DNA of 64,000 nucleotides from Longimicrobiales bacterium (GCA_028278645.1 JANQDZ010000016.1:1-64000), one strand, 5' to 3'; numbered from the stretch's first letter, positions 39,725 to 61,519 are shown. Numbers and translations are program-made. The notes: generated by a model from the letters alone, not told the origin.

Positions 39725-40900
39725 GTGGAAACACGACATTTTCATCCACGCCTCACACTTGCTTTGTTTCTTTCCTGCAGTCTCGTCCTGCTCCGGGGAG
39801 GCATCGCAGGAGCTCAGGATACTTCGACTTCCGGAATCCCAGCCTGCGAGAGCTGCCGAATCGAGGTTCTTCAGACGGTTACGGCTGGAAGCCCCGGCGA
39901 CCCAGAGATCTTCGGGGATTACACCTTCGGCGTTGTCCGGTTGAGCGACGGGAGGATCTACGCCCCGGGGGCAACTGCAAATGTGCTTATGGTTTTTGAC
40001 CAGGGCGGGTCTTTTTTGCACACCCTCGGCCAACCCGGCCCAGGCCCTGAAGAGTTCACCATGATCGTGGGGCTCAAGAGGATGCCGGGAGACAGTCTCC
40101 TCGTTCTCCAACCTGGGCGTTTCTCGGTGTTCTCGGGAACAGAGTCCTTTGCACGAAGCGCCCCATTTCGCCTCAACTCGGCGCCGGCTCTGTCCGTCGG
40201 CCCGGGGGGGAATCTCCTCTATTCTCGGTGGCTAGAATCCCCCGCCGGGGAACAGAAACAGTTCCACATCTTGGATAGCTCTTTCGATCCCATCTTTTCC
40301 TTCGGCGATGTCTCGCCCCAGGAACAGGAGTTATGTGGCCGCTGCGCGACGAGGCCAGCTGCATGGTCCACCGGGAAGCCTGACCACTTCTGGTCGGTGC
40401 GGCCAAATCAGTATGAGATCGAACTCTATCACAAAGAAGGGAGACGAGTCCGGAGGATTCAGGTGGAGGGATCACCCTGGTTCGAGCCTTGGACCAAAGA
40501 GAGGGATGGAGATCGGGGTGCCACGGCCTTCGAGGGGTCCCGCTCCACACGTTGGGGAGAAAGACCGATACCGTACTTTTCCTCCATCCATGAGGACGCT
40601 GATGGGCTTCTCTGGCTTTCTGCGGTTGTCCCAGCTTCGGACTGGAAGCCTTTCCGAGGTGATGTGCCCTCCATGATGGGGGTCAACGATGTGCCCCCAG
40701 AGCTGCAAGAGTACCTGAAGACCGCAACGGAAACGGTGATTGAGGTTGTTGATCCAGACGCGGCCCAGGTTCTGGCCTCGATTCGAACGGGAAGGGTACT
40801 GAGCCTGCTCGACGGGCAAACTTACCGAACTTTCGACCAGGACGAATCCGGTTTCATCCGTCTTCAGCTCTTTGAGGCGCATCTGCGGGGCCGGCATTGA
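39725..40900 (+). CDS. Cassette 1: secreted 6-bladed beta-propeller protein
   Basis: About 391 aa. GTG 39725 follows GGAGG at good distance; a GTG at 39692 adds 11 residues. A signal peptide (LALFLSCSLVLLRGGIAGAQD) is followed by propeller repeats with VVRLSDGRIYAP, VFDQGGSFLHTLGQPGPGP and EEF, a degenerate form of the family motif GxGPGEF. No lipobox Cys is obvious, so it may be periplasmic. The function of this family is unknown; propellers usually bind ligands or partners. First in the array, so best placed for expression from Pc. Confidence 0.75.
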   Translation: METRHFHPRLTLALFLSCSLVLLRGGIAGAQDTSTSGIPACESCRIEVLQTVTAGSPGDPEIFGDYTFGVVRLSDGRIYAPGATANVLMVFDQGGSFLHTLGQPGPGPEEFTMIVGLKRMPGDSLLVLQPGRFSVFSGTESFARSAPFRLNSAPALSVGPGGNLLYSRWLESPAGEQKQFHILDSSFDPIFSFGDVSPQEQELCGRCATRPAAWSTGKPDHFWSVRPNQYEIELYHKEGRRVRRIQVEGSPWFEPWTKERDGDRGATAFEGSRSTRWGERPIPYFSSIHEDADGLLWLSAVVPASDWKPFRGDVPSMMGVNDVPPELQEYLKTATETVIEVVDPDAAQVLASIRTGRVLSLLDGQTYRTFDQDESGFIRLQLFEAHLRGRH

Positions 40901-40964
40901 ACCGAATCTCGGAACCCGCATCAGATTGAGGATTGCGGAGACTCCAAAGTCGGTGTTCGGTGCC

Positions 40965-41094
40965 GGTTAACAGCGGGCCTGCCGCGGCTCGCCTTTCGGC
41001 TCGCCCCCTACGGGTCATTCGCGTCGGTCACGTCGTTTGCAAAGGCAAACGTCGCGCCCTTCGGCGAATGCCGGCAGCCCGCGAGGCGTTAACC
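40965..41094 (+). repeat. attC1, end of cassette 1
   Basis: R'' GGTTAAC, R' GTTAACC, cut after G41088. The left flank CGGTGCCGGTTAA is the exact reverse complement of the cassette start at 39651. Class B (central GTTTGC/GCAAAC hairpin). Cores intact. Confidence 0.9.
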
Positions 41095-41121
41095 GAGACG
41101 GAGTGAGAAAAGACAAAGGCG

Positions 41122-41511
41122 TCAGCGAGGGGTCGTATGGTCCTTGAGCCATGCTGCGAGTTCGGGTTCTTCGAGTTCACTGCTGGCCAAAGCCAACATC
41201 ACGGCGACGACCTCCTCCTCCGGAGCATCGATTCTCAGGCCATTGAGGCCGAGAAAGAGATACATGGCCTGAAAGGCGATGCGCTTGTTTCCATCGATGA
41301 AGGGGTGGTTCCGGGCGATCCCAAACCCGTAGGAGGCGGCCAAGTCACAGAGATCTGATTCTGAGTCATAGCCGAATCTGTTCCGAGGTCTGCTGAGGGC
41401 CGAATCCAGAAGCCCTTTGTCCCGTACTCCGGGCGAGCCTCCATGCTCTTTGACCTGATCAGCGTGCACGGCAAGGATAAGCGTCATCGAGACCCAGCGG
41501 GGTTCCTTCAC
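41122..41511 (-). CDS. Cassette 2: Doc-type toxin (Fic/DOC family)
   Basis: A protein of up to 129 aa. HPFIDGNKR is the Fic/DOC active-site motif and LILAVHADQVKEHGG the usual N-terminus of Doc. Doc toxins phosphorylate EF-Tu and stop translation; the kinase activity here is inferred from the family. The GTG start at 41511 overlaps the antitoxin stop (GTGA); ATG 41487 is an alternative start. Reverse orientation to the array with its own promoter, as for toxin-antitoxin cassettes in other chromosomal integrons. Confidence 0.88.
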   Translation of the reverse strand: MKEPRWVSMTLILAVHADQVKEHGGSPGVRDKGLLDSALSRPRNRFGYDSESDLCDLAASYGFGIARNHPFIDGNKRIAFQAMYLFLGLNGLRIDAPEEEVVAVMLALASSELEEPELAAWLKDHTTPR

Positions 41512-41735
41512 TTCGCGAGTTCCCGCATAGCATTGCGGTACTGCCTAGCGCCCTCGGCGTAGATCTCCATGGCCTTGGCGAAATCAGGATCAAAGGGGGT
41601 GATCAGGATTCCGTCCTCGGTTTCGATGAGGTGAACGCGATCGCCCTCAACCAGCCGGAAACGCTCTAGCATGGCCTTGGGAATCGTGGTCCCAGCGGAG
41701 TTACCGATGGCTCGGATAGTGGTCTGTTTTGTCAT
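41508..41735 (-). CDS. Cassette 2: AbrB/MazE-type antitoxin
   Basis: A 75-aa protein with the swapped-hairpin AbrB pattern (TTIRAIGNSAGTTIPKAML, then VEGDRVHLIETEDGILITPF) and a helical C-terminus that should bind the toxin. ATG 41735 has GGAAGGAGG upstream. It precedes and overlaps the Doc toxin gene, the usual antitoxin-first order. Such proteins bind their own promoter. Confidence 0.88.
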   Translation of the reverse strand: MTKQTTIRAIGNSAGTTIPKAMLERFRLVEGDRVHLIETEDGILITPFDPDFAKAMEIYAEGARQYRNAMRELAK

Positions 41736-41755
41736 GGGATCCTCCTTCCTGCGCG

Positions 41756-41785
41756 ATGTTAGAACAAATGTAATAACATCGACAA
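41756..41785 (-). promoter_or_regulatory. Cassette 2: predicted toxin-antitoxin promoter
   Basis: On the minus strand TTGTCG (41785-41780), 18 bases, TAACAT (41761-41756), 21 bases before the antitoxin start, in an AT-rich patch. It gives expression independent of Pc. Confidence 0.5.
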
Positions 41786-41848
41786 GGAACCGGAAGGGAC
41801 CCGTTTTGGGACGGGGGCGGGTTTGGCGGTCGCCTGAGGCTCCGTCAC

Positions 41849-41990
41849 GGTTAACAGCGGGCAGTGGCCGCGCGCTCGCTTCACTCGCGGCCCTTCGCCG
41901 GTGACGGATGGTGGATGAGAGGCTTCCAACTTGAGGGCGGCTACGGGTAGGCACCTGACGGTGCCTCCGGCAGCCCGCGAGGCGTTATAG
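41849..41990 (+). repeat. attC2, end of cassette 2
   Basis: R'' GGTTAAC, R' GTTATAG, cut after G41984. The left flank CCGTCACGGTTAA matches the reverse complement of the cassette start at 12 of 13 positions. Class A with terminal hairpin GGCACC/GGTGCC. Cores intact. Confidence 0.9.
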
Positions 41991-42019
41991 GTCAAGCCCA
42001 AGGGGGCCAGCAGAACTGA

Positions 42020-42592
42020 GTGCGGAACAACGAGGATTCTCTCTTGCTACGAAAGCATCAAGCTCTTTCCCGGTCCGGCGTCCTCTGTGCGCTTCTACTC
42101 ATCTGCATCTCTTCCTCGGGAGTAGCTCAAGACCGTTGGTTGGCCGCTCTCGGGTTCGGCGGGCTCACAAAAAGCTCTGAGGGGAATGCTTTGGTTTCCG
42201 GGCTCGGTGCGGAAATCGGAGTTGCCGGGAGATACCGAGCTGTTGCCCGGTACCTGGACAGGTCAAGGAAACTCTGCGAGGAGGATGGGGCTTGCGAGGC
42301 AGAGGCTAGGGGCTTCGAAGCCGGAGTAGGGGCTCGCCTCGGCGGCGCCGAACGGATCCTGCCTTTCGTCCAATTCTTGATGGGATACTCCCTGGAAAAC
42401 GACTACTACGGGGGCGGAGCCGATCCGTTCTTCTCGGCTTCCGTAGTACTGGGGGCCGATCTCATGGTTGCTCCGCCGGTCACCCTTCGCGTTTCAGCCC
42501 ATCATCGGCGGATCCCAAGTGCAGGGTACCGGCCCGGCCGGGAAGCCACGAACACTGGCATCTTCGTCGGCGTCGGGCTTTCCACCGGTTGA
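42020..42592 (+). CDS. Cassette 3: outer-membrane beta-barrel-like protein
   Basis: A 190-aa protein with a signal peptide (VLCALLLICISSSGVAQDRW) and then alternating Gly/aromatic strands (LAALGFGG, GLGAEIGVAGRYRAVARYL, FEAGVGARLGG, TGIFVGVGLSTG) typical of small 8-strand outer-membrane barrels, although the last residue is Gly rather than aromatic. Function not recognised. GTG start with a weak ribosome-binding site. Confidence 0.65.
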   Translation: MRNNEDSLLLRKHQALSRSGVLCALLLICISSSGVAQDRWLAALGFGGLTKSSEGNALVSGLGAEIGVAGRYRAVARYLDRSRKLCEEDGACEAEARGFEAGVGARLGGAERILPFVQFLMGYSLENDYYGGGADPFFSASVVLGADLMVAPPVTLRVSAHHRRIPSAGYRPGREATNTGIFVGVGLSTG

Positions 42593-42640
42593 GGGGCCGT
42601 CATATGGCCGAGGCAGAACGCCGATGGAAGTGGACTTGAC

Positions 42641-42780
42641 CTATAACAGGGGCCAGTGCCGCACGCTCCCTACGTTCGCGGCCCGTCGCCGGTGACGGAT
42701 GGTGGTTGAGAAGCTTCGAACAAGAGGACGGCTACGGGTCCCGGCCTTCGGCCGGTCCGGCAGCCCGCGAGGCGTTATTG
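42641..42780 (+). repeat. attC3, end of cassette 3
   Basis: R'' CTATAAC, R' GTTATTG, cut after G42774. The left flank CTTGACCTATAA is the exact reverse complement of the cassette start at 41985. Class A, terminal hairpin CCGGCC/GGCCGG. Confidence 0.9.
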
Positions 42781-42811
42781 GACAACCGCGTCAAATGGAG
42801 GGAGAAGAAGG

Positions 42812-43354
42812 GTGAAGATACGTAGGCTCTGGCTCATTCTGGGTATCGGTCTCTTTCCCAGGTTCGCAGCGGCTCAAGAACCGCCCATCCTCTCCCCGGA
42901 GGACACGGCGGCCGTATGGGCCGCTGCCTTTGACACCCTTCGGGAAGAATCCAGCCCAACCTTCGATGCCGACGTCCTCCTCTGGGTCAGAACTGCGCCG
43001 TACTGGGATTTGACGGCGTCGAATTCACCGCCTTCTGATCGGGTCTGGTCTGGGCTTCTCCAGCGGTTTCCACAAGCGGAATACGCGGAGCCCGCCGAAG
43101 ATCTCATTGATTGCCCTCCCGGCGTGAAACTCAAGATGCCCGGAAACGGCTGCCCTATCCGGGGCGGGGGCCGGATCATTCAGTTCAAAACCATCTCTTC
43201 GGCCAGTTCCGAAGATGTGAGAGTGCGGGTTTATATGGTTCACAGCGCAGCAGACGCACGTTGGACGCAGTGGTTCGGGATGGAAGTCAAAGTCGGATGG
43301 CAATCCGGCTCCGGCTGGGCGGCAAGGGAGATTGTGTGGTACCTGGCTACATAG
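42812..43354 (+). CDS. Cassette 4: secreted protein of unknown function
   Basis: A 180-aa protein with a signal peptide (RLWLILGIGLFPRFAAAQE). The mature part has two Cys (IDCPPG, NGCPIR) that may form a disulfide and a C-terminal half of beta strands (RVRVYMVHSA, MEVKVGWQSGSGW). I do not recognise a family. GTG start after AGAAGGGT. Confidence 0.6.
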   Translation: MKIRRLWLILGIGLFPRFAAAQEPPILSPEDTAAVWAAAFDTLREESSPTFDADVLLWVRTAPYWDLTASNSPPSDRVWSGLLQRFPQAEYAEPAEDLIDCPPGVKLKMPGNGCPIRGGGRIIQFKTISSASSEDVRVRVYMVHSAADARWTQWFGMEVKVGWQSGSGWAAREIVWYLAT

Positions 43355-43364
43355 GCGCGGTGTC

Positions 43365-43587: not shown

Positions 43588-44796
43588 ATGGGTTACACTA
43601 GGAGAACCATCAGCACTTTACTCCAGGTCACCGTGCTATCCGCGCTCATTGTGGCATGCTCAACGAATTCGGGCCGGGGGCACCCTGGGGCAAGTGTAGA
43701 CACGCTGGCCTCAGGCATCATCAGCGTCACCAACTCATCCACACCCAGGTGGCCTGAGGGTGAGGGGTGGAGAGTGGAGGAGGAATACCGACTAGGGTCC
43801 ATCGACGAGGATGGTCCAGAGATCTTTGCCCGAATTCGCGGGCTTGAGGTCGATGCCCTCGGGCGGACCTGGGTCTTTGAAGAACAAGCCCAAGAGATCC
43901 GTGTGTTCGACGAAAAAGGCGACTTTGTGCGCACCATCGGACGAGAGGGGGAAGGTCCCGGGGAGTTCTTAGAGGTAACCGGGGTCGCTTGGGCACCCGA
44001 TGCCACTCTCTGGGTCCTCGATCCTGGGAACCTCAGGATCTCGGTGTTCGATACTGCCGGGTCCCTGGTTGGGACGCATCCCTTTGACCTTTCCTACCGC
44101 TATTTTCCCTGGCCAGGCACTATCGACGGTGAGGGGTCGCTTTATAAACTCCAGCGGACCGCGCCGTTGCCCAACATGGAAACGGTCTTGGTCAGATACG
44201 ACGCCAGTCTCGCTCCGACCGATACTCTGTTGGTCCCAGTCCATCCCAGGGGACCACAGAGATGGGTCCACTCTTCAGGCGGTGGCACCACAACTCTCCG
44301 AATCCCGTTTGCCGGAGACGCGATTTGGAGAGTGACTCAGGATGGCGGTATGTGGGTCGCCATTACCGACGAGTACCGGCTGATCCGCCTCGGACCGAAC
44401 GGGGACACGCTCCGAACCGTGTCGAAGCCGTTTCACCGGCTACCAGTCACCAGGCACGAGGTAGACAGCCTCCTCTCCCGAATGGAGAGATATCGAAGCA
44501 GTATCGATCGGTCCCAGGTGCCCTCCTTTAAACCCCCGATCCAGAACTTCCTCCTCGATGATGAGGAGAACGTTTGGGTGTTCCCCCTCTCCGAAGGGGA
44601 GTACGCCGGTCGGAGCGCCGAAATCTTTAGTCCCGTCGGAAGCTTCCTGGGCACGGTGTTTCTTCCGTATTCACCAAGATGGTATCCCAGGCCAGTGATC
44701 AGGGAGAACCAAATGGTAGGCGTCACAATGGACTCGCTCCGAGTCCCATACGTTGTGCGAGCCACAATACGAAAGCCGGGGATCGCGGGTGGCTAG
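43588..44796 (+). CDS. Cassette 5: 6-bladed beta-propeller lipoprotein
   Basis: A 402-aa protein. Lipobox SALIVAC with Cys 24, then propeller repeats with RTWVFEEQAQEIRVFD and the motif IGREGEGPGEF. The C-terminus ends DSLRVPYVVRATI, a divergent form of the family DxxDVxxVVxx closure. ATG 43588 is the first start giving a clean signal peptide; an in-frame GTG at 43573 has a GGGAGAGGG further upstream and is an alternative. Longer frames would run back into attC4. Role unknown, envelope-exposed. Confidence 0.8.
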   Translation: MGYTRRTISTLLQVTVLSALIVACSTNSGRGHPGASVDTLASGIISVTNSSTPRWPEGEGWRVEEEYRLGSIDEDGPEIFARIRGLEVDALGRTWVFEEQAQEIRVFDEKGDFVRTIGREGEGPGEFLEVTGVAWAPDATLWVLDPGNLRISVFDTAGSLVGTHPFDLSYRYFPWPGTIDGEGSLYKLQRTAPLPNMETVLVRYDASLAPTDTLLVPVHPRGPQRWVHSSGGGTTTLRIPFAGDAIWRVTQDGGMWVAITDEYRLIRLGPNGDTLRTVSKPFHRLPVTRHEVDSLLSRMERYRSSIDRSQVPSFKPPIQNFLLDDEENVWVFPLSEGEYAGRSAEIFSPVGSFLGTVFLPYSPRWYPRPVIRENQMVGVTMDSLRVPYVVRATIRKPGIAGG

Positions 44797-45099: not shown

Positions 45100-46311
45100 A
45101 TGAGCCGAGACCAAAAAGCCTTCCCTGGTTGTACATGCGAGATGATGAGGATAGTGGCGATGGCAGTTCTTGGTCTGCCATCCATCCTCCTGCCGGGCCT
45201 GACCGGGTACCTTCCGGCTGCAGGTCAGACGCGATTCCTTTCTGATCTCCCAACTTTCGAGGTTGAACAGGACCTCCACATCGATGGAAACCTGGCCACG
45301 CTGGTTCCTATCCGCTGGCTGGCAGTCGCCCGGAACGGGACCATCGCCGCCTGCCAAGAACAGATGAGTGCGATTCGCTTCTTCGATTCAACTGGGAACG
45401 ACCTGGGCACGGTTGGAGGGCAGGGTGAAGGCCCAGGGGAATTCAGGATGCCCATCCATGCTGGTTGGATTGGTGACTCGCTTTGGGTTGGTGATTTTTT
45501 GTTAAAACGCGTCACGCTCATCTCCACGGAGCCAGCGACTATCCGCACCCTCCCACCCATTGCCTCAATTCGCCCCGCACCAGCAGATACGGCTCGGTTC
45601 TCCATTGGCTCCATCTACTCCGTCCATGCGTTGTATCCCGACGGAAAGCTTCTGGTGAATACCACTGGCGGGGAATCTCTGGAGGGCAGTCCACTGTTCC
45701 AGGTATCTCAAGATGGCCAAATCGAAAGGCTCATCGTGGAAATCCCCGATGACCCCGATGAGATGGTCCGTGGCCGTTCCGAACGAGGGGTTTCCAGCTC
45801 ACGAGTACCGTTCTATCCCGCTCCGGAATGGGGAGTGGCTCCGGACGGGAGTCGTATCGCGGTCTTGACCATGGATATTTCTGGTCGGGAAGGAGGGACC
45901 TTTCGAGTAGACCTTTTTGACCCGAATGGTGATCAGATCTTTAGCCGGACGTTCCCTTTCGAAGGTGTCCGGATCCCGGATCAGGTGGTGGACAGCGTAA
46001 TGGAGCCTCGTTCCGCCCGACTTTCCAGCCGTGGCATCCTGCGGGAGATCCGGAATCGAATCCCGCCGGTCTATCCACCGGTGGAGAAGATCGTGCTGGG
46101 GATGGATGGGCGGACCTGGATACGACTGTACAGTGGTGAGGAACGGGAGCATTGGCTGATCCTGGACGAGACCGGGAATCCCCAGGGTCGAGTCTCTCTG
46201 CCCGAAAAGACCACGCTCCAGGTGGCAGGCGCCGCCCATGTGTGGGCCTTGGAGCGTGACGAGTGGGACGTGGAGAGCATCGTTCGTTATCGGGTTCGGC
46301 AGGACGGGTGA
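45100..46311 (+). CDS. Cassette 6: secreted 6-bladed beta-propeller protein
   Basis: A 403-aa protein with GGGAGAGG before the ATG. The signal-like segment MAVLGLPSILLPGLTGYLPA has no convincing lipobox; ATG 45142 or 45145 would give a tighter signal peptide. Family motif VGGQGEGPGEF; conserved C-terminus DEWDVESIVRYRV. Same family as cassettes 5, 7 and 8 but low identity by eye, so old divergence. Confidence 0.78.
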   Translation: MSRDQKAFPGCTCEMMRIVAMAVLGLPSILLPGLTGYLPAAGQTRFLSDLPTFEVEQDLHIDGNLATLVPIRWLAVARNGTIAACQEQMSAIRFFDSTGNDLGTVGGQGEGPGEFRMPIHAGWIGDSLWVGDFLLKRVTLISTEPATIRTLPPIASIRPAPADTARFSIGSIYSVHALYPDGKLLVNTTGGESLEGSPLFQVSQDGQIERLIVEIPDDPDEMVRGRSERGVSSSRVPFYPAPEWGVAPDGSRIAVLTMDISGREGGTFRVDLFDPNGDQIFSRTFPFEGVRIPDQVVDSVMEPRSARLSSRGILREIRNRIPPVYPPVEKIVLGMDGRTWIRLYSGEEREHWLILDETGNPQGRVSLPEKTTLQVAGAAHVWALERDEWDVESIVRYRVRQDG

Positions 46312-46560: not shown

Positions 46561-47844
46561 ATGCTCGAAAAACATCCAGCGCCACGGGCGAGAAGAGGTG
46601 CAATCCGCACTCTCCTTTTCACTGTTTTGTCTGCGTTCCTCCCGACTGCCTGTCAGTGGGGGCAGTCAGGATCCGAGACCTTTTCCGTTGTCGACAGTGC
46701 TGGAGTGACGATTGCCGAGTCTAAACGTCCCCTCTGGGAAAAAGGAGAAGCCTGGACCATTGCCCGTGAGCCGGAGGTCGTCATCGGCCTCAGGGAGGGC
46801 GACGAGAGGTACCTGCTGAACGAGGTTGGCGGGGTCCGACGGTTGTCCGATGGACGGATCGCAATTCTCGACCGGGGCTCCTACCGGGTGAGAGTCTACG
46901 ACCGCACGGGAATTCATCTGATGGACTTGGGCGGAGAGGGGGATGGTCCCTCAGAGTTTCGGACTCCCCAGTTTCTGGGGCTCGTATCCGACACACTCTT
47001 CGTCTATGAGGTCATAGGCGGTGCCCTTACCTGGTTTTCCCCGGACGGGCAGCTTCTTCGAACGTCCAACGGGTTCAGCCAGGCCGATAGGACGACGGGA
47101 ACGCTCCGGATGTTTGGGCAGCTCCAGCCCGATTTCGGGATAGCAACGAGAACAGGAGGAGCCAGGTATCAACCGAGTGACCTGGGAATCGACCGGGAAC
47201 CGTGGTCGATCTGGCGGTTCGGACTCGTCAATCCAGGCGTGGATTCACTTGTCTCCGTGCCTGGCGGAGAGATCGAGGTCCTGGCCTCCGATGGGCGCGG
47301 CACCCGGCAACGGCGCTATGTCTTCGGCAAGTGGACCTGTTTCGCCGCGTCAGAAGACAGGATCTATGCCGGGCCAACGGACGAGTTCTCCATCCAGGAG
47401 TTCGACCGGGAGGGCAACCTCCTCCGCATCATTCGGCGAGATGAGGTGCCTCGTCGCGTGACCCGATCGGACTTCAACAACTGGGTCGATCAATACCTCG
47501 ATGTCTTGGATCGACCACGAAATCAAAGAGCGGAGATGAGGCGGACCGCAGGCGAGCTCAAGGTTGCCGAAACCGTGCCTGCATTTAAGTGGATCGGGGT
47601 GGATTCGGAGGGCAGCCTGTGGGTCGAAGAGTGGGAGGGAGTTGGAATCGATCAGGGGATCTTCTCGGTCTTTCGACCCGATGGTGCGTGGCTGGGCCAC
47701 GTCGAGATCCCGGATGGCCTCGCGGTTCCCTTTGGGGAGCCGGACAAGCAAACGATTGAGATCGGCTCCGACTACCTCCTCGGAGTATGGCCCGACGACT
47801 TCGGTGTCGAGCAGGTACGGCTCTACCGGATTGAGAAGCCTTGA
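46561..47844 (+). CDS. Cassette 7: 6-bladed beta-propeller lipoprotein
   Basis: A 427-aa protein. Lipobox LPTAC (Cys 31). Mature start SETFSVVDSAGVTIAES is shared in pattern with cassettes 12 and 19 (DSAGV, DSSGV). Motif LGGEGDGPSEF; C-terminus DDFGVEQVRLYRI. Repeats such as VRRLSDGRIAILDRGSYRV show the blade pattern. Confidence 0.8.
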   Translation: MLEKHPAPRARRGAIRTLLFTVLSAFLPTACQWGQSGSETFSVVDSAGVTIAESKRPLWEKGEAWTIAREPEVVIGLREGDERYLLNEVGGVRRLSDGRIAILDRGSYRVRVYDRTGIHLMDLGGEGDGPSEFRTPQFLGLVSDTLFVYEVIGGALTWFSPDGQLLRTSNGFSQADRTTGTLRMFGQLQPDFGIATRTGGARYQPSDLGIDREPWSIWRFGLVNPGVDSLVSVPGGEIEVLASDGRGTRQRRYVFGKWTCFAASEDRIYAGPTDEFSIQEFDREGNLLRIIRRDEVPRRVTRSDFNNWVDQYLDVLDRPRNQRAEMRRTAGELKVAETVPAFKWIGVDSEGSLWVEEWEGVGIDQGIFSVFRPDGAWLGHVEIPDGLAVPFGEPDKQTIEIGSDYLLGVWPDDFGVEQVRLYRIEKP

Positions 47845-48050: not shown

Positions 48051-49283
48051 ATGACTAAGAACGTCTCGAGCGCCATATACAGCCTGATCGTCCTAGCTGC
48101 ATGTTCGTGCGCAAGTGAAGCTGGAACCGCTGGAGACGCAGAAAACGCCATGGCCGGGATCCGATCCATCGACACACTGGCCAATGCAGCCGTCCATGTG
48201 GTCAGCACATCAGAAGGTGTTTGGGCCCACTCAAGTGTCGATCCCTGGCGGTTGGTCGAGGACCTCCGGATCGGAGTGGCTGATGGCGACGAGCGCTACA
48301 TGTTCGGGGGAATCGGAGGTGTGATTCCTACTCCGGATGGTCGGATCTGGGTTCTCGATGGGATGGCGTACCAACTCCGTCTTTATGACCGAGAGGGCAC
48401 CTTCGTTCGAGCGGTTGGAAGGGACGGGGAGGGCCCTGGTGAGTTCGGATTTAACCCCTGCGCATTCCACGGTCCGGAAGGGGAGGTCTGGGTGGAGGCC
48501 GGGGGGCGCTGGCAGTGGTTCGACAGCGAGGGAGGACTTCTCGGTCAACAACGGGTGACACGTAACCTGGGTTGTGGTATCCAGAGGTGGGTTTCCCATG
48601 ACCGTTTCGTAGCGGTCCATGTGGAAGGGACTCCTAGGAGTCGGGAGCGAGAGAGCTACTTCCTTATCCACAGCCGAGAGCCGTCAGGGGAAGTTGCGGT
48701 GACGGATACCGCCCACCGGCCGGTGATTCCGGAAAACCAACGGGTGGAGTGGTTCGATGCGGATAGGCGGTCGAGGATCAGCGTGTTAATGCCCCTGATT
48801 CACCGGGCCACCTATGTCCTGGGCCCGAACGGCGACTTCTGGATCTCCGACGGGAGTGGAGAATACTGCATCAGGCGCCAAACCCTCTTTGGAGACACAC
48901 TCGTCATTATGGAGCGGCCGTACGAACCCATCTCCGTGCCGGATTCCATTCGAGACGACGCCATGCCCGAGCGCCGGCGGAGAGACCTGACCCTCGACCG
49001 CAGCTTCGATCCCGATGATATCCCCCGGGTCTTTCCGCCTTTCGATCGGCTCCTCATCGGAACTGACGGGACTCTTTGGGTCAGGCGGCAGCTGGAAGAT
49101 GGCCTCTATGGGCTCGATGTGTTTGCTTCTGACGGTCGGTTTTTGGGCCCGGTGGAAGCCCCTCCGGAGTTTGACCGGATGGGCATTCACCGAATCACGC
49201 CGGACTACATGTACGGAACGGTGAGAGATGAGATGGACGTCCAATACGTTGTCCGACTCGCAATTCGGAAACCCGAGGGCTAG
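48051..49283 (+). CDS. Cassette 8: 6-bladed beta-propeller lipoprotein
   Basis: A 410-aa protein. Lipobox LIVLAAC with a second Cys two residues later. Motif VGRDGEGPGEF; blade repeats GRIWVLDGMAYQLRLYD; C-terminus DEMDVQYVVRLAI. The start follows a long spacer without a strong ribosome-binding site. Confidence 0.8.
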   Translation: MTKNVSSAIYSLIVLAACSCASEAGTAGDAENAMAGIRSIDTLANAAVHVVSTSEGVWAHSSVDPWRLVEDLRIGVADGDERYMFGGIGGVIPTPDGRIWVLDGMAYQLRLYDREGTFVRAVGRDGEGPGEFGFNPCAFHGPEGEVWVEAGGRWQWFDSEGGLLGQQRVTRNLGCGIQRWVSHDRFVAVHVEGTPRSRERESYFLIHSREPSGEVAVTDTAHRPVIPENQRVEWFDADRRSRISVLMPLIHRATYVLGPNGDFWISDGSGEYCIRRQTLFGDTLVIMERPYEPISVPDSIRDDAMPERRRRDLTLDRSFDPDDIPRVFPPFDRLLIGTDGTLWVRRQLEDGLYGLDVFASDGRFLGPVEAPPEFDRMGIHRITPDYMYGTVRDEMDVQYVVRLAIRKPEG

Positions 49284-51698: not shown

Positions 51699-52841
51699 AT
51701 GCGCTGGAGGCTTCTACTTTTCGTGAGCTGGGCTTGTACAGGTGGTGAAGCTCCGTCCGACCAACCTGTCCGAACGGACTCCGCCGGTGTTGCCCTGGTC
51801 TTAAACACCCAAGACGACCGTTTTCTGGATTGGAGTTTCGAGCGTGTCCTCGACCTCGGCGGCACGGACTCCGGTCCAACGGCGTTCTTCCGGGTGTTCC
51901 CCACTTCGATCGGTGTTGATTCACTCGGCAACATCTATGTGCTGGATGCTGGAAACTTCACTGTCGCGGTTTTTGATCATGCTGGGCATCACCTAAACTC
52001 CTTCGGTCGAGAAGGGGAAGGTCCCGGGGAGTTCGGTTTTCCTTCAGACATGGCGGTGCGGCCTGATGGCCAGACGGCCATCTATGATTTTGCACGTCGA
52101 GCTCTCCTCTTCTTTGATCCAAACGGCTCCTGGGCAGGGACTCTTCCGCTGCCGGGCCCTCTACAACGCAAGGTTGCCCTCCTCGACCATGGGCGGATCG
52201 CAGCCGATGTGACGCAGGCGGCCGAAGTGCCGGACTCGACAGATTATCTTCTTCTAGTGTTGGGTTCTGATACGGCCGACCTTGGAAGAGTCCGGCAGGT
52301 CAGCAGCCCTCGACCCCAGCAGTTCTCCTGCACGTCGCATGCGAAGCCGCGGTACTTTTCACCAAGGGTGGTGTGGGCTGCAGCGGGCAGTCGCGTCGCC
52401 TTCAGCGACGACACCAGCTATTCCATACATCTGTTCGGAGAATCCGGCTGGTCAGCTATCTGGCGGCGTGAGCTCCCTGTGGTCAAATCCACTCTCCAGC
52501 TTGCCGCCTGGGAAGTGAACCATGGCGACAGCCTCCGTGTGCGCGGCTGTGCTATCCCCGCCGAAGAAGCCGCTAGGAAGTTCGGCTACGCAGACCTCGC
52601 CCCAACTATCGAGAACCTGGCCGTTACCCCTGATGGTGGAATCTGGTTGAGGCGTCGAACAGACGAGCCAGGCAAACTGCCGATTGATATCCTCGACCAC
52701 ACCGGTGCATACCGCGGCACCCTAGCCGGCGACTGGCCTTTCCCAGCCGTGTTTCGCGGCCCGGACGAGTTCGTGACAGTGGAGACAGACGATTACGATG
52801 TTCCACATGTCGTTGTATACCGGGTTCACCGGGGCTTGTGA
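51699..52841 (+). CDS. Cassette 12: 6-bladed beta-propeller lipoprotein
   Basis: A 380-aa protein. Short lipoprotein leader MRWRLLLFVSWAC with Cys 13. Then TDSAGVALVLN, blades such as NIYVLDAGNFTVAVFD, motif FGREGEGPGEF and C-terminus DDYDVPHVVVYRV. ATG 51699 is chosen over an in-frame TTG at 51645. The gene is preceded by an unusually long 233-base leader in the cassette. Confidence 0.8.
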   Translation: MRWRLLLFVSWACTGGEAPSDQPVRTDSAGVALVLNTQDDRFLDWSFERVLDLGGTDSGPTAFFRVFPTSIGVDSLGNIYVLDAGNFTVAVFDHAGHHLNSFGREGEGPGEFGFPSDMAVRPDGQTAIYDFARRALLFFDPNGSWAGTLPLPGPLQRKVALLDHGRIAADVTQAAEVPDSTDYLLLVLGSDTADLGRVRQVSSPRPQQFSCTSHAKPRYFSPRVVWAAAGSRVAFSDDTSYSIHLFGESGWSAIWRRELPVVKSTLQLAAWEVNHGDSLRVRGCAIPAEEAARKFGYADLAPTIENLAVTPDGGIWLRRRTDEPGKLPIDILDHTGAYRGTLAGDWPFPAVFRGPDEFVTVETDDYDVPHVVVYRVHRGL

Positions 52842-53050: not shown

Positions 53051-54271
53051 ATGAAGACCTTTTGGTTTTGGCTCCGGTCGGTCTACGGCTTGTCCGGATT
53101 GGATTTTGGCTGGATTCTCATCTTCGGCATCTGTCTGGTTGGGTGCGGTCCAACGCCAGGGCAGTCCGGAGATTTCAGCAGCGTTCAGCTTGAGGCCTCG
53201 AAAGCCAAGGTCTATGGGGCCGCTGATGGCCCAGGAGCCCTGACCGCAGCCTTTGATGTAGCGGTCTCCCCACAAGGCCGGATTCTCGTCTCGGAACCGT
53301 CCCTCGCCGAGATAGCCGTGTTTGATGCTCAAGGGGCCTTTCTTCAAACCATCGGCCGAAGAGGAGAAGGGCCGGGTGAATTCCAAACCCCGGGGGCCAT
53401 CCGGTTCAAAGGAGATACACTGACCGTCCTGGACTTCATGTCTGGGATCAACCTCTTTACTGTCGACGGCGAATTCATCGACCGGGTCTCTTTTACGCTG
53501 CCGACTCCCCCGGAACTGGGCTTCCCAACCCGACCGGCCCTTCTGCTTGCAGATGGATCGGTGGCTTGCTTTGCACCTCTCCGGTCCATGTTGATCGTGA
53601 GTGGTGAGGTGACGCACGAGTCCTGGGTGAAGGCAGACCGAAGTGGGGCCCTAGTGGACACCTTGGTCAAGTACCCGGTCGACGGTAGGTATTCCAGTTT
53701 TCGGCTGCCGGAGGGGCCGCCGTATGTTGGGCCTCCCGCGACGCCCTGGGATGACATCCTGGGAATGCCACCGGATGGGTCATTGTTGGTGATGGTGAAC
53801 CGGACCGCAGCCCTTTCCGGGACTGAGCCGGTAGTTGAGCTGTTTCGAATCGACCTTTCCGGGGACACGGTCCACAGTAGGAGCATTCGTTACGATCCGG
53901 TACCGTTGACGACGGATTGGCGAGATAGCGTTGCGTATAGTTGGGCGCAAAAGGAGGCCGATAGGCGAAATCTGACGGCAGACCGGCTCGCGGGCATCTA
54001 TTTGGAGGGGATGGATTGGCCAGCACACCATCCTGCCGTTTCTGCGGTGGTCGTGGGAGGAGATGGCACGATCTGGATGAGAAGAGAGATCCCGATTGGT
54101 GATTCGATCCGTTGGGATCTGGTTGACTCAGATTTCGAACCGGTCGGATTCACCTTTCTTCCCATGGACTTTACCGTGAAACGGGTTTCGAGATCAGCAG
54201 CTTGGGGTGTTGAACGGGACGAGTATGACGTTCCCTCGGTAGTACGATACGACGTCAACGGTGCAGGATAG
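53051..54271 (+). CDS. Cassette 13: 6-bladed beta-propeller lipoprotein
   Basis: A 406-aa protein. A longer signal segment ends in lipobox ICLVGC. Motif IGRRGEGPGEF; blade GRILVSEPSLAEIAVFD; C-terminus DEYDVPSVVRYDV. ATG 53051 follows GTTGGAGA; longer frames run back through attC12. Confidence 0.8.
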   Translation: MKTFWFWLRSVYGLSGLDFGWILIFGICLVGCGPTPGQSGDFSSVQLEASKAKVYGAADGPGALTAAFDVAVSPQGRILVSEPSLAEIAVFDAQGAFLQTIGRRGEGPGEFQTPGAIRFKGDTLTVLDFMSGINLFTVDGEFIDRVSFTLPTPPELGFPTRPALLLADGSVACFAPLRSMLIVSGEVTHESWVKADRSGALVDTLVKYPVDGRYSSFRLPEGPPYVGPPATPWDDILGMPPDGSLLVMVNRTAALSGTEPVVELFRIDLSGDTVHSRSIRYDPVPLTTDWRDSVAYSWAQKEADRRNLTADRLAGIYLEGMDWPAHHPAVSAVVVGGDGTIWMRREIPIGDSIRWDLVDSDFEPVGFTFLPMDFTVKRVSRSAAWGVERDEYDVPSVVRYDVNGAG

Positions 54272-55110: not shown

Positions 55111-56415
55111 ATGATTGAGAACAGTGCTGCGACCCAAGCCGAGCCATTCCCCGAAGCCCGCATCGACGCCTTCAGCACCGAAAGAAGGAGCCTGGGGGCG
55201 CGAGCAGTGTCTGCAGCCCTGGCCATCGCCGGGAGCGCCGGCTGTGGGATCCCTTCCGAGACGGCAGGTCCGGACGTCGATGTCTTACCGGTTCTGGGTT
55301 TCACCGAGGAATTCCGCATCGGGAGCCGGGACGACCCAGAGTTCGGGTTCTCAGAGATCGGACCGGCGACGATCGATCGTGACGGACAGATCTGGGTCCT
55401 TGAGTTTCAGGACCAAACGATACGGGCATACAGCCCGACGGGAGAGCTCCTACGAACGCTCGGAGGGCGTGGGGAGGGTCCCGGGGAGTTCGCTATGGTC
55501 GGTGGTCTGTGGGGCGTAACCGGTGACACGGTCTGGGCTATCGACGTTTCGTTGAGCCGAATTACCCTGTTCGATAGGCTGGGTACGCTACTTTCCACCG
55601 GGAGATTTGAGAGGGTACCTGTTGGCTCACATGGAGGGCGGCCCATCGGCCATGTGCTTCCGCGTGCCCTCCGATCCGACGGGGTTTTTTCCAGCCGGAT
55701 TTCAGGATTCTCAAGTCGGCAGGATACGGTGAGGGTACCCCAGGTCCTCTACGGTCCGTCTGGGGGAGTGGTAGACACGGTCGGATGGGACCTCTTCCCG
55801 CCCAGGACACGAGAGACCCAGTGGCTCGAGGTAGGACCGGTCCGATATCCGGTTCCTCTACCTCCCTCACAGGAGCCCCTTCTAATCGACCTGGCAGAAG
55901 CTCGATGGATCATCGACCGCCCCGTGATACAATCAGAGGCGCTACCCACCTTCCGCATCACTCGATTCGGTGGGCCGGGAGATACAGTGTTCGCCAAGAT
56001 CTACAGGTACCATCCTCAACCCTACCCGGCGGAAGTCCTCGATTCCATGGCGTGGGAGGCCGCCCTGAGTCCCTTCGGCGCCAGAGTCGGAGCGCCGGAA
56101 GGCGCCGACGTACATGCCACCTTCCGTGCGCTGCGCGGCGCCATGGACTTTCCCGATTCCCAGCCTCCCGTCCAAGGTGGGATCGGGGGTGACGATGGGA
56201 CGATCTGGCTGAAACGAGAGGATAGGGGCGGGGAGACTGATCGGTGGCTTGTCCTCGATTCGGATGGGACACCTCGGGGCCATCTGCCTCTCCCGCGGAG
56301 GTGGACCGTGTCCTGGGTGAGCGCCGACGGATTCCTGGCCATTGAACCTGACAACGTGGATGTGCCATGGTTGGTAAAGCTCCGAATCGACCTCGCGGAG
56401 GCCGATTACCGATAA
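55111..56415 (+). CDS. Cassette 15: 6-bladed beta-propeller lipoprotein
   Basis: A 434-aa protein. A ~30-residue polar segment precedes the leader ALAIAGSAGC (lipobox), an unusually long N-region, so a later start is possible. Motif LGGRGEGPGEF; blade GQIWVLEFQDQTIRAYS; C-terminus DNVDVPWLVKLRI. The TAA stop lies in the attC R'' box (CGATAAC). Confidence 0.78.
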   Translation: MIENSAATQAEPFPEARIDAFSTERRSLGARAVSAALAIAGSAGCGIPSETAGPDVDVLPVLGFTEEFRIGSRDDPEFGFSEIGPATIDRDGQIWVLEFQDQTIRAYSPTGELLRTLGGRGEGPGEFAMVGGLWGVTGDTVWAIDVSLSRITLFDRLGTLLSTGRFERVPVGSHGGRPIGHVLPRALRSDGVFSSRISGFSSRQDTVRVPQVLYGPSGGVVDTVGWDLFPPRTRETQWLEVGPVRYPVPLPPSQEPLLIDLAEARWIIDRPVIQSEALPTFRITRFGGPGDTVFAKIYRYHPQPYPAEVLDSMAWEAALSPFGARVGAPEGADVHATFRALRGAMDFPDSQPPVQGGIGGDDGTIWLKREDRGGETDRWLVLDSDGTPRGHLPLPRRWTVSWVSADGFLAIEPDNVDVPWLVKLRIDLAEADYR

Positions 56416-56623: not shown

Positions 56624-57862
56624 GTGACTTCGGCAAGAATCCAAGGGGACGGTAAAGGCTACCTGGAGTTTCTCCTGATCTCCGTCTTCGTCGTCCTGGT
56701 CTCGTCCTGCGTGGGTGGAGACGGAAGTTCGGCTGCTCTGCACGTGGAGTTCGACACCGTTCGTGGCATTCCAGTCACGGTGAATCGTGGCGAGCCGCCT
56801 GGTTGGCCCGTGGACACTCTTCTCTCCTTGGGCGGTTCGCTCGCGACCGAGGAGCCGGAACAGTTTGGGCGGATCGGCTCGATCGTCGCTGACGCAAACG
56901 GAAACCTGTTTGTTCTGGATGTGATTCGCGACGAGGTTATGGTGTTTTCCCCAAAGGGGGAATACCTGCGAACGGTCGGAAGACGAGGGCCCGGGCCGGG
57001 TGAATACCGGGGCCCGGCCCACCTCGGGCTGCTCGGGGACACTTTGGTGGTCTCCGACATGACCGATTACCGACTTTGCCTATTCAAGCTCGACGGTGAG
57101 TCGATTGGCCAGTGGAGTACCTTCCTAGAACTAGGGGGAATCATCCAGACCGGGCTGGAGCAGATCTGGCTGAACACATTCAGATTGAGAGGGTCTGGCT
57201 TCGAGGAGGTGTTCGCCGGACATGGACTCCGCGGGCCGATGGACACGGTGCCGGCCAGACCTGATTCGACCCGAGACTTGATGGAACCGGAGAACAGCGT
57301 CACCTGCAGGTCCCCCGCACGCATCTCAGTGTTTTCAGTGCCTTTTAGGCCGGGGATTGTCCGGATTCCTACTCCCAATGGCGAGATCTTGGAATCGGAT
57401 CCTGTCGGCTACCGTATCGTGTTCACGACGTTGCAGGGCGATACGGCGCGCATCGTCGAGTACCAGACGCCTGATATTCAGGTTTCTGATTCCGATTGGG
57501 ACGAGCAAGAGGAGGAATGGAGGAGGTTTCGTGCTGAGCGTCCAGGTGGAGCGTGCGATTCGCGTCCGACCCGACCAGCGAGAAAGCGGCTCATTGATGA
57601 TGTAGTCTTTGACGATCAGGGCCGGACCTGGATTGAGAGAGTGCAGCTGGACTCGAGTGATGAGGAGCGCTTCGATGTCTTCAACCCCGAAGGTGAGCTC
57701 CTTGGAATGGTCGTCACACCGACACGGGCCTGGTCAGCACGGCCTTTTATCCGTGGCGACCGGATCTATCTGGTCACCGCGGATTCACTCGACGTCCAGT
57801 CCGTCCACGTCCTTCAGTTCTCCCCGGAAACACAGATTCGAGGGCCGGTGGGAGAGACCTGA
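56624..57862 (+). CDS. Cassette 16: 6-bladed beta-propeller lipoprotein
   Basis: A 412-aa protein starting GTG after GGAGGGATC. Lipobox VLVSSC. Motif VGRRGPGPGEY; blade NLFVLDVIRDEVMVFS; C-terminus DSLDVQSVHVLQF. GIPVTVNRGEPPGWPVD resembles the post-leader region of cassette 5. Confidence 0.8.
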   Translation: MTSARIQGDGKGYLEFLLISVFVVLVSSCVGGDGSSAALHVEFDTVRGIPVTVNRGEPPGWPVDTLLSLGGSLATEEPEQFGRIGSIVADANGNLFVLDVIRDEVMVFSPKGEYLRTVGRRGPGPGEYRGPAHLGLLGDTLVVSDMTDYRLCLFKLDGESIGQWSTFLELGGIIQTGLEQIWLNTFRLRGSGFEEVFAGHGLRGPMDTVPARPDSTRDLMEPENSVTCRSPARISVFSVPFRPGIVRIPTPNGEILESDPVGYRIVFTTLQGDTARIVEYQTPDIQVSDSDWDEQEEEWRRFRAERPGGACDSRPTRPARKRLIDDVVFDDQGRTWIERVQLDSSDEERFDVFNPEGELLGMVVTPTRAWSARPFIRGDRIYLVTADSLDVQSVHVLQFSPETQIRGPVGET

Positions 57863-58128: not shown

Positions 58129-59304
58129 ATGAAAGCAGCGAGAGTATGCTTCCTCTTGGGGGCTGGAGTCCTCACAGGAGGGTGCGACGGGGAGCAGTCC
58201 GACCAATCCCCTCCCTTTGAGAGTAAGTGGGCGGTCTCTGCTCAACCCAGAGTTGTGATCGGCGGCCAGGACGAGCGGCAGGAATACCTTCTCCATGCGG
58301 TGGCAGGTGCGACCCGGCTAACCGATGGGCGCATCGTCGTTGCTGACCAAGGGTCCGGAACGATCTCCTTCTATGACCCCCAGGGAATCCATCTGCTGAC
58401 CGTTGGGGGAAAGGGAGGAGGTCCGGGCGAGTACCAACTCATCATCCAGATTCGGCGGCTTCCGGGCGATACTCTTCTCGTCTTGTCGCGGCAACCAGGT
58501 CTGACCTGGCTTTCCCCCGAAGGCCGCTATCTTCGCTCCGCACGGCTGGCTGTTTCGAGCCTTTTCCGACAGCCCTGTCGGATGACTGAAGAATGGCACC
58601 TCCTGGGGGATGGAAGCGTTCTCTCTGTTCTCGAGGATAACTTTTCAGGAAATCATTGTCCTCCACGCCCTGAGAATCCATGGCGGCAGTCCGGACTCAT
58701 CGCCCGTTCGGTCAGCCTGGACGGTCATTTCGACACCCTCGGTATCTTCCCAGCTACTGAGCGGAATTCCCCCAACTACCGGGCGTATGGCAAACGTCTT
58801 GTGGTTGCCTTCGGACAGGATCGAGTCTATTCCGGTGACACTGGAGCGTCGGAGATCCCCGTTCTGGACTTCGGCGGGGACACCGTCGACATCCTGTCCT
58901 CACCGTTTGAGCCCGTGGCCATCCCTGCAGAAGCGAAACAGGCCGACGTTCGACGTTCCACTCTACCCGACGGCACGGTTCGTAGTTTCAACCGCTATGA
59001 CTACCCTGAGTACTATCCGCTATTCGGTCGGCTCTTGGCTGACGAACTGGGAAACCTCTGGGTGATGGCCTATCCACCGCTCCGGGAACCGATCTCATCT
59101 TGGCGTTTGGAAAGGGTGTATGGGTTCTTCGTTGAGGAAGGGGGGGCTCGTTGGCGTGTTCTAGATCCCAGTGGTAAAACTATCGCGGAGGTCCGTACTC
59201 CTCCGGGGTTCTTTCCCCTTGAAGTCGGGAGAGATGATATCCTCGGAGTTCATAAGGATGAGTTCGATGTGCAATCGGTCCAAATTTATGCTTTGGATCG
59301 ATGA
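58129..59304 (+). CDS. Cassette 17: 6-bladed beta-propeller lipoprotein
   Basis: A 391-aa protein. Leader MKAARVCFLLGAGVLTGGC with lipobox Cys 19. Motif VGGKGGGPGEY; blade TRLTDGRIVVADQGSGTISF; C-terminus DEFDVQSVQIYAL. ATG 58129 follows GAAGGAG. Confidence 0.8.
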   Translation: MKAARVCFLLGAGVLTGGCDGEQSDQSPPFESKWAVSAQPRVVIGGQDERQEYLLHAVAGATRLTDGRIVVADQGSGTISFYDPQGIHLLTVGGKGGGPGEYQLIIQIRRLPGDTLLVLSRQPGLTWLSPEGRYLRSARLAVSSLFRQPCRMTEEWHLLGDGSVLSVLEDNFSGNHCPPRPENPWRQSGLIARSVSLDGHFDTLGIFPATERNSPNYRAYGKRLVVAFGQDRVYSGDTGASEIPVLDFGGDTVDILSSPFEPVAIPAEAKQADVRRSTLPDGTVRSFNRYDYPEYYPLFGRLLADELGNLWVMAYPPLREPISSWRLERVYGFFVEEGGARWRVLDPSGKTIAEVRTPPGFFPLEVGRDDILGVHKDEFDVQSVQIYALDR

Positions 59305-59569: not shown

Positions 59570-60067
59570 ATGGGGGAGATCAATACTGTGAGAACCATGA
59601 CAATCGACTTCGAGTTCTTTAAGAAGGACAACTGGTCGGATGACGAGGTCCGGAATGTCAAGTTAGCGATAGGGTTCGTGCAGAAGCTCATGAATGACCA
59701 TGAGTTCGACCTGGTCCTGGAGGAGTTCGGCAATCCGTCCTACCGTCAGCACAACAGGAGCATCCCGGATGGCATGGAAGCGCTGGTCAACTACGTAAAG
59801 AACTTCACGAAGAGATTCCCGGATTACGTGTACGACGTTAAGCGCATCCACGCCGATGGCGATTTCGTCATCTTCCACTCACACATAACGACGAACACGA
59901 AGGATCGAGGCAATGATCGAAGGGGAATCAACGTGTTCGATACGTGGAGAATCGTCGATGGGCAGATTGTGGAGCACTGGGACTCACTTCAACCCATGAA
60001 CGGCTTTATGCGCTTCTTCTTCTGGATAACCGGTGGCAAGATCGCGAATACGAACGGTGTCTACTAG
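59570..60067 (+). CDS. Cassette 18: SnoaL-like / NTF2-fold protein
   Basis: A 165-aa protein without signal peptide. VKLAIGFVQKLMNDHEFDLVL, YRQHNRSIPDGMEALVNYV, FVIFHSHITT and FDTWRIVDGQIVEHWDSLQP match SnoaL-like, NTF2-fold proteins. Members include polyketide cyclases, isomerases and many uncharacterised enzymes; the substrate is unknown. GTG 59588 after GGGGGAG is an alternative start. Confidence 0.82.
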   Translation: MGEINTVRTMTIDFEFFKKDNWSDDEVRNVKLAIGFVQKLMNDHEFDLVLEEFGNPSYRQHNRSIPDGMEALVNYVKNFTKRFPDYVYDVKRIHADGDFVIFHSHITTNTKDRGNDRRGINVFDTWRIVDGQIVEHWDSLQPMNGFMRFFFWITGGKIANTNGVY

Positions 60068-60106
60068 CTGGATTCGGAGGTTCGACCCTGCAGGTGGACA
60101 CACGTC

Positions 60107-60196
60107 ACATTACTAGAAGGCTGCCGCCTTCACTCGTTTCACTCGCTCCGGAGAGCGCGGCAGGGAGGCCGCGCCGGCAACCTCTAAACGTTATCG
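60107..60196 (+). repeat. attC18, end of cassette 18, second attC family
   Basis: R'' ACATTAC (TAC for AAC), R' GTTATCG, cut after G60190. Only 90 nt with different arms (GGCTGCCG / CGGCAACC) and AAACGTTA before the cut. TCACAT pairs with the cassette start. Confidence 0.78.
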
Positions 60197-60256
60197 GGCA
60201 GCGCACGGGTGGACGGCCGAGAGAAGAACCGCCAGCCTGAGTGAGGGAAAGGTCAG

Positions 60257-61519
60257 ATGAGGCAACCGAAGCAGTTGCTGTTTAGGCTCCCTCTTGTTTG
60301 TGCCTTCTACATTGTCACGTCCTGTCAGCCTTCGGAACAGGCTGACCTTGGCACCGGGCCGACCGTGCGAGACAGCTCAGGTGTTCGAATCGTGGAGTTA
60401 CCCGGGGCTCTTCTCAGTGACCTTCCGAGCTGGTCCATCGCTGAACAGCCGGACCTAGCGATTGGTCTGGTGGAAGGACCGGAGCCGTATCTCTTTGGCC
60501 GGATCGCCGATGCTGCAAAGCTCGAGTCAGGCCAGTTGGTTGTTCTCGACGGCCAAGCCCGAGTCATCCGTGTTTTCGATGGCGAGGGATTGTTCCTTTC
60601 GGAAATGAGTGGGTACGGAGAAGGTCCCGCCGAACTCCAGGATCCAACGGTCTTCAGGACGGTGGGCGACACCGCCATTGCTTTGTATGATCGTCTCCTT
60701 CGCAAGATCGCGGTCTTCAACGTGAACGAGGGGTTTGTCGAGACCGAGAAAGTCATGCTGGAGGGGTGCCCTCCCCATGATCCGAGGATTCCTCTTCCCT
60801 CCTGCTACGTATCGGGACTTCTCAATGACCTGACGAGGGTAGTAACGGGCTTCGGCCCCCGGTCGCCGTCATTGAACACGCAACCCGGCGAGACCGCTAC
60901 GTCTGGCCGGCGAGTGAGGTCCTTTGGCCTCGCCGACGGCAATTCCGTGACGACCCTCGACACAGTCCTCTCCGAAACGACCACGTACGTCCACGACTCA
61001 AAATGGCTTTGGTTCATATCAACCGCCTTCGACTGGTCGGGAGGGTTCGTTGCTGGCAAAGACCGTGTCGTGGTGGCGACCAACAGCACTTTCGAGTACA
61101 GAGTCTGGTTGGGGGACGGGCGCCTGGGATCGATCGTTCGGGTGGATACGACTGCGAGCCAACTGCGCTCTTCACACCTCGACCCGATCCGAGCCTGGGC
61201 CGCATCCGGGGAATCGCCCTACGACCCGAGCCGGTACCTGGCCGAGGCCCCGTTCCCGGACACCATACCGTTTTTCGGTGAGGTTTTGGTTGATGAGGTT
61301 GGGCGGGTTTGGCTGGCCGAGTATGGACCCGACGTTGAGCTCCTTCCCAGGGAGTTTTGGGATTGGACGGTTTTCGCGGCGGATGGCCTGCCTCAGGCCC
61401 GAATTCGGACCCGTAGCCCGAGCGACCTTCTGGAGATCGGTGAGGACTACGTTCTCATGCGGCTCGTTGATGACCTCGGGGTCCACACCTTGGGCCTCTT
61501 CGATCTCCTCAGGGGCTAA
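60257..61519 (+). CDS. Cassette 19: 6-bladed beta-propeller lipoprotein
   Basis: A 420-aa protein. Leader ends in lipobox IVTSC. Mature start RDSSGVRIVEL parallels cassettes 7 and 12. The family motif is degenerate (MSGYGEGPAEL), and the C-terminus is DDLGVHTLGLFDL. Blades such as SGQLVVLDGQARVIRVFDG are clear. GGAAAGGTC before ATG. Confidence 0.78.
   Translation: MRQPKQLLFRLPLVCAFYIVTSCQPSEQADLGTGPTVRDSSGVRIVELPGALLSDLPSWSIAEQPDLAIGLVEGPEPYLFGRIADAAKLESGQLVVLDGQARVIRVFDGEGLFLSEMSGYGEGPAELQDPTVFRTVGDTAIALYDRLLRKIAVFNVNEGFVETEKVMLEGCPPHDPRIPLPSCYVSGLLNDLTRVVTGFGPRSPSLNTQPGETATSGRRVRSFGLADGNSVTTLDTVLSETTTYVHDSKWLWFISTAFDWSGGFVAGKDRVVVATNSTFEYRVWLGDGRLGSIVRVDTTASQLRSSHLDPIRAWAASGESPYDPSRYLAEAPFPDTIPFFGEVLVDEVGRVWLAEYGPDVELLPREFWDWTVFAADGLPQARIRTRSPSDLLEIGEDYVLMRLVDDLGVHTLGLFDLLRG

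Follow-up and report, generated by a model that had tools for sequence, protein, structure and literature searches.

Sedentary chromosomal integrons, such as those of Vibrio, Xanthomonas and Treponema, combine an attI site with a long array of attC sites delimiting mostly one-gene, co-directional cassettes, a toxin-antitoxin cassette among them. All these features are shared by the locus described here, a chromosomal integron adjoining nuoN in a Longimicrobiales bacterium (JANQDZ010000016.1), in which the integrase is transcribed towards the array, as in the Treponema integron (PMC3607928). Exported proteins are common integron cargo (11-14% with signal peptides, with estimates of up to one third when membrane proteins are included; PMC10963911, PMC12444791). 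The window that we analysed, 64,000 nucleotides in length, corresponds to bases 1-64000 of contig C50 of a draft genome (4.9 Mb, 103 contigs, 95.6% complete). Among the first 19 cassettes of its array, 11 encode exported 6-bladed beta-propellers. This array was probably assembled from propellers captured individually from a large, lineage-wide family of exported NHL-like proteins, and would now represent a mostly frozen, stored set of binding proteins.

Cassettes and attachment sites

In a genuine cassette, the first bases past the crossover point pair with the R'' box of the attC site that ends that same cassette. Over the 22 cassettes counted from the attI core at 39651, R' and R'' are complementary at 125 of 154 variable positions, versus 72.3 +/- 5.5 in shuffled pairings, none of which (0 of 20,000) reached the observed value. 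The cassettes are genuine, with attC sites that possess R'', L'', L' and R' boxes and cassette-specific R''/R' complementarity. The attI-like core, located next to the integrase gene, also pairs with the R'' box of another attC of the array at 12 of 14 positions in the downstream attI/attC test presented below. The cassette numbers deduced from these sites are identical to those of a preliminary description of the window.

39651..39660, plus strand: attI-like core GTTAACCGGC, marking the crossover point and the beginning of cassette 1, complementary to the R'' box of attC 1 (GCCGGTTAAC)
40964..41094, plus strand: attC 1 (type 1), covariance model R1 and R''/R' complementarity
Starts at 41848, 42640, 43364, 44924, 46386, 47909, 49337, 50091, 50481 and 51349, plus strand: other type 1 attC sites, model R1
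Starts at 52848, 54291, 54941, 56409, 57891, 59340, 61848, 62637 and 63771, plus strand: further type 1 attC sites, model R1
60105..60196, plus strand: attC 18 (type 2, unlike type 1), covariance model
61641..61732, plus strand: attC 19 (type 2), covariance model

The attC sites were searched with two covariance models, R1 and R2. The RNAalifold structure of R1, built from 18 type 1 sites of the window, is poor, so that this model works mainly on sequence; R2 is better. A duplex-energy scan tried as an attC finder was unspecific, control regions scoring equally high, and was replaced by the covariance models and the R''/R' test. A search against Rfam gave no match.

According to the covariance models, the array continues after 61.5 kb and leaves the window, reaching ~71.2 kb on contig C50. 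Contigs C38 and C71 bear the same kind of array, and single or few attC sites are present on C97, C66, C26 and C9; draft assemblies break at arrays, cassettes can be counted only approximately on C38 and C71 and some attC sites may have been missed. Two unrelated attC families are interspersed within the same arrays (C50, C38 and C71). Type 2 sites occur in 20 of 112 genomes of the bacterial family, belonging to 12 genera, and type 1 sites, among the relatives searched, only in the genome of the window and in one genus mate.

Concentration of one propeller family on cassettes

The preliminary description had placed beta-propellers on cassettes 1, 5, 6, 7, 8, 12, 13, 15, 16, 17 and 19. All 11 open reading frames are indeed present and intact, encoding proteins of 380-434 amino acids.

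39725..40900, plus strand: propeller 1, cassette 1 (PF17170, 24.4 bits; family alignment)
43588..44796, plus strand: propeller of cassette 5, lipobox LIVAC (PF17170, 41.6 bits)
45100..46311, plus strand: propeller of cassette 6, with modelled structure (family alignment; structure model)
46561..47844, plus strand: propeller of cassette 7, lipobox LPTAC (Pfam search; family alignment; profile)
48051..49283, plus strand: propeller of cassette 8, lipobox VLAAC (PF17170, 25.1 bits)
51699..52841, plus strand: propeller of cassette 12 (PF17170, 34.3 bits)
53051..54271, plus strand: propeller of cassette 13 (PF17170, 34.2 bits)
55111..56415, plus strand: propeller of cassette 15, an older paralogue of the one carried by the cassette at 66.8 kb of the contig (alignment; tree)
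56624..57862, plus strand: propeller of cassette 16, lipobox LVSSC (PF17170, 39.9 bits)
58129..59304, plus strand: propeller of cassette 17, lipobox LTGGC (Pfam search; family alignment)
60257..61519, plus strand: propeller of cassette 19, whose attC belongs to the second family (Pfam search; family alignment; attC model)

These 11 proteins align over their length as one family and are as divergent as previously described, propeller 1 sharing 18-26% identity with the others. They resemble the PF17170 (6-bladed beta-propeller)/DUF5128 proteins in profile and motif, six of them scoring above the curated cut-off of PF17170, but differ in that five lie below it and in that the window copies ride on cassettes. 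The GxGxGPGEF motif reported as common to the family is present in all 11, with drift (GPSEF, GPEEF, GPAEL, GPGEY). The C-terminal DxxDVxxV strand, said to occur in most members, was recovered in its strict form (DxxDV) in seven. The designation of the propellers as secreted proteins or lipoproteins fits 9-10 of the 11, in which a pattern match detects a lipobox-like cysteine. The best structural matches of the cassette 6 propeller model (mean predicted local distance difference test score, pLDDT, 73) are NHL propellers, followed by the exported Bacteroides proteins 4raa and 3s9j, of unknown function, and, lower, by BtuG (8ptd), a B12-capturing surface lipoprotein. From this fold and from the export signals present in nearly all of them, the propellers are most likely extracytoplasmic binding proteins.

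A profile built from the 11 window propellers retrieved many relatives elsewhere, and 76 propeller genes were counted in the genome (those scoring >30 bits). The arrays represent 1.55% of the genome, yet they hold 28 of these genes, for 1.2 expected (binomial p ~5e-31), which corresponds to a 24-fold enrichment over length and bears out the concentration on cassettes claimed in the preliminary description. Contig C50 alone carries 16 propellers versus 0.5 expected (p ~6e-20), on 16 of its 27 cassettes (59%), one match being weak (31 bits).

The 48 propellers located outside the arrays are at least as diverse as the array copies. Some of them form tandem clusters on contig C75 of the same genome, in which many propellers stand side by side as in the array; these clusters differ from it in having intergenic gaps of ~100 bases or less and no attC repeats, and therefore do not consist of mobile cassettes. 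Two of them (L022 3271-8346 and L029 7154-11541) include the closest chromosomal relative of a sister-species cassette. The family is present in 55 of 59 relatives, and the integron of the sister species G001 carries five propellers among ~21 attC sites (counts in relatives are lower bounds, no more than ~32 candidates per genome having been scored). The propellers are thus not specific to the integron and, type 1 attC sites having been found only in the genome of the window and one genus mate, the family is wider than the integron; presumably, it is also the older of the two.

Such abundance, in the genome as in the bacterial family, would be in line with an explanation by supply alone, in which cassettes are captured at random from the surroundings, propellers being the commonest small exported gene, and selection is unneeded. 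The interleaving of cassette and chromosomal propellers in the tree agrees with it as well. However, the 76 genes amount to ~1.7% of an estimated ~4,500 genes, versus 59% of the array cassettes, and G022, a member of another genus that is also rich in propellers, has none in the 20 kb of its integron examined. We consider it unlikely that supply alone produced the array.

Separate recruitment and selection of the array propellers

When 82 propellers are placed in a tree, 19 label changes are required for the 27 that come from arrays (mean of 22.8 after shuffling), and well supported branches force at least seven of these changes; the array propellers are not one clade. The nearest kin of the array propeller C38_2583 is the chromosomal C36_41918, and the sister-species cassettes L077_2283 and L074_8 have as nearest kin the chromosomal C75_74783, from the genome of the window, and C78_56019, respectively. 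These pairs could reflect either capture from the chromosome or release to it. Since near relatives exist in both states (cassette and ordinary gene) in sister species, the array provides a direct test case for the origin of cassettes. Neighbouring array propellers share 22.1% identity, compared to 22.2% for all pairs. The lack of a single clade, together with neighbours that are no more alike than random pairs, argues that each propeller was recruited separately.

The same two results led us to reject duplication in place, the copying of one captured propeller cassette many times, as the main cause, and the presence of propellers on both attC families points in the same direction. What this explanation does account for is the pair C50_54841/C50_66753, at 46% identity, one close pair between arrays (C38_12983/C71_9541, 83-85%) and a weak correlation between gene and attC distances; as the origin of the array it is extremely improbable. 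With regard to the two outcomes that the preliminary description had set against its own interpretation, simple tandem duplication is not the main pattern observed, and propellers at least as diverse as those of the array, and more numerous, do exist outside it.

The close pair corresponds to one cassette present in both the C38 and the C71 array (C38:12983 and C71:9541), 83% identical in both DNA and protein, and its homologous block begins at the crossover point. The R'/R'' boxes display a matched change, GTTATCGGAC/GTCCGATAAC and GTTATCGGGC/GCCCGATAAC, which would fit, as expected, selection on the folded attC site. The ratio of nonsynonymous to synonymous substitution rates (dN/dS) is 0.15 (NG86) or 0.21 (YN00), and the pair is under purifying selection; the diversifying selection for which the preliminary description proposed a test is not seen in the sole pair close enough for this estimate. 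These values, and the propeller frames of the C50 array, which are open across the gene, also make it improbable that the cassette genes are unused passengers, an explanation with which an apparently inactive integrase and the failure to see a promoter would be compatible.

Integrase, promoter and fate of the array

38364..39284, plus strand: tyrosine recombinase frame directly after nuoN (PF00589, 8.7e-43; TIGR02249, 208 bits, below the cut-off of 265)

Homology of this frame to integron-type integrases begins at ~38562. Compared to the integrase of the sister species (L114), whose frame follows nuoN too, the window integrase lacks ~65 N-terminal residues and the start codon, the corresponding deletion (window 38417-38570) removing the N-terminal half of the core-binding domain. 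The integrase frame of the window is not intact, and the enzyme looks inactivated in this genome. In the sister species, the N-terminal part is present and the contig stops before the C terminus. Besides, a promoter scan of positions 39200-47000, a weak scan using the sigma-70 consensus only, found no site for 1.7 expected.

With this deletion and the empty scan, the central proposal of the preliminary description, that cassette order controls which copy is expressed from the promoter Pc, has no support in the window genome, although it might apply to relatives. Surface variation of this type, driven by the integrase, would agree with the concentration of an exported family on mobile cassettes, with integrase transcription running towards the array and with the N-terminal part retained in the sister species. 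The purifying selection acting on the testable pair, the 48 propellers encoded elsewhere in the genome and the number of cassettes (27), large for a single promoter to rank by position, are further arguments against it, and we regard it as very doubtful; a role of the propellers as a repertoire is possible.

The scenario that we favour, capture of individual propellers into an array now mostly frozen, would involve an integrase that was once active and whose N-terminal part persists in the sister species. Propellers were acquired repeatedly and independently, on both attC families; they would have come from the propeller pool of the lineage and would have been kept as functional proteins, most likely outer-surface or periplasmic binders that differ in their ligand, leaving a stored set of binding proteins. 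What this scenario retains from the preliminary interpretation is a concentration achieved without in-place duplication; integron specificity, diversifying selection and shuffling in front of Pc are not supported. Several observations weigh against it. The one further integron studied closely, that of G022, is devoid of propellers over the 20 kb covered, so that propeller capture is no rule of this integron class. A Mantel test comparing gene and attC distances, as had been recommended, detects a weak correlation (r 0.15, p 0.013), indicating that a few cassettes were duplicated or share a history. The estimate of selection comes from a single pair, the others being too divergent for dN/dS. 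The fold matches are broad (TM ~0.5, template modelling score), BtuG being one among many hits, and the ligand-binding role is a prediction. Finally, the apparent loss of the N-terminal part of the integrase could stem from an error in the assembly.

Integrases lacking the I2 insert

According to the literature, the I2 insert is found in no recombinases other than integron integrases and is required for the capture of cassettes (PMC7790495). It is absent from the window integrase, which TIGR02249 matches as two segments (56-184 and 219-315) with a gap at 184-219. About 40 relatives of this integrase, all from the same bacterial family, lack I2 in the alignment, and the spacing from K to HxxR is 65-72 residues in the 32 that are parsable, versus 106 in the canonical IntI proteins of that family. 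Those closest to the window integrase (G000, two in G001, G022, G121 and G008) group in a single clade, separate from IntI (support 93). In a scan of named genomes, the window integrase had distant relatives only (Flavobacteriia and others, at most 47% identity, short segments aside).

Six of the 30 I2-less loci have, downstream of the integrase, an attI-like core and a cassette R'' that match at no fewer than 12 of 14 positions, compared to none of the 26 upstream and none of the 30 reversed controls, which makes it unlikely that the I2-less recombinases are chance neighbours of attC sites. With at least 11 of 14 positions, there are eight cases downstream versus one upstream and none reversed, and these eight genomes (G000, G006, G020, G022, G031, G074, G093 and G112) represent eight genera. 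An I2-less integrase stands directly 5' of an attI-like core and matching cassette in the window (38364-39284) and at L095, L102, L103, L106, L109, L110 and L111, and type 2 attC sites occur within ~2 kb downstream of the I2-less integrase in G006, G020 and G093. G022 has an intact I2-less integrase (316 aa), and the R''/R' complementarity of its array reaches 15 bases; this genome also encodes a canonical IntI associated with a different attC type on another contig. In G022, G121 and G008, the arrays could be served by a canonical IntI encoded at another locus; neither G000 nor G001, both draft genomes, yielded an IntI with I2.

Contigs C54 and C29 (end of L055 and start of L054) overlap by 99 bases and jointly hold a second I2-less integrase, which belongs to another clade and has a long N-terminal extension.

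On balance, we lean slightly towards the existence, in this bacterial family, of a distinct integron lineage run by naturally I2-less integrases, of which the propeller array would be one product. Such enzymes might handle the folded attC via another contact or in an Xer-like way, and might represent either a pre-I2 state or a parallel invention. Until now, the early state of integron integrases had to be mimicked by evolving IntI1 in the laboratory (PMC7790495). I2-less systems would have been missed by at least one early survey of genomes, which retained only genes with the additional domain or intI patch (PMC2426708), and we found nothing on naturally I2-less integron integrases in a literature search that reached few subscription papers or preprints. 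The I2-less integrases bear on the evolution of integron integrases from ordinary tyrosine recombinases.

Other cassette cargo

41122..41954, minus strand (opposite to the propellers): cassette 2, Fic/Doc toxin and MazE-like antitoxin (PF02661, 2.6e-18; PF04014, 2.4e-8)
62804..63706, plus strand: cassette 22, TatC, a housekeeping-type translocase carried on a cassette (PF00902, 2.5e-60)

The Fic/Doc and MazE-like pair is likely an array-stabilising toxin-antitoxin system. In the array region of C38 (L019 14918-16987), one gene encodes a CAP12/Pycsar TIR domain fused to a Cpn60 chaperonin domain, possibly a defence gene. Carboxypeptidase-regulatory-like proteins recur in or beside the arrays (window 50262-51446, L017 11352-13892 and L019 7519-9303), one of them with an additional TonB plug domain, and are possible partners of the propellers.

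Comparison with known systems

Within the same literature limits, beta-propellers did not turn up in any integron paper mentioning gene cassettes, and nothing was found on propellers in connection with Gemmatimonadota. BtuG and other propeller surface lipoproteins of Bacteroides share with the window family the propeller fold and the lipoprotein nature and appear among the structure matches, but they are distant from it, and ligand binding by the window family is a prediction. Integrons are usually described as carrying a mixture of diverse genes; here, half of the cassettes correspond to one host family that was recruited repeatedly. The window array thus differs from the sedentary chromosomal integrons, which it otherwise resembles, in that about half of it is devoted to one protein family, in that most of its cassettes encode exported or membrane proteins, and in that its integrase lacks I2.

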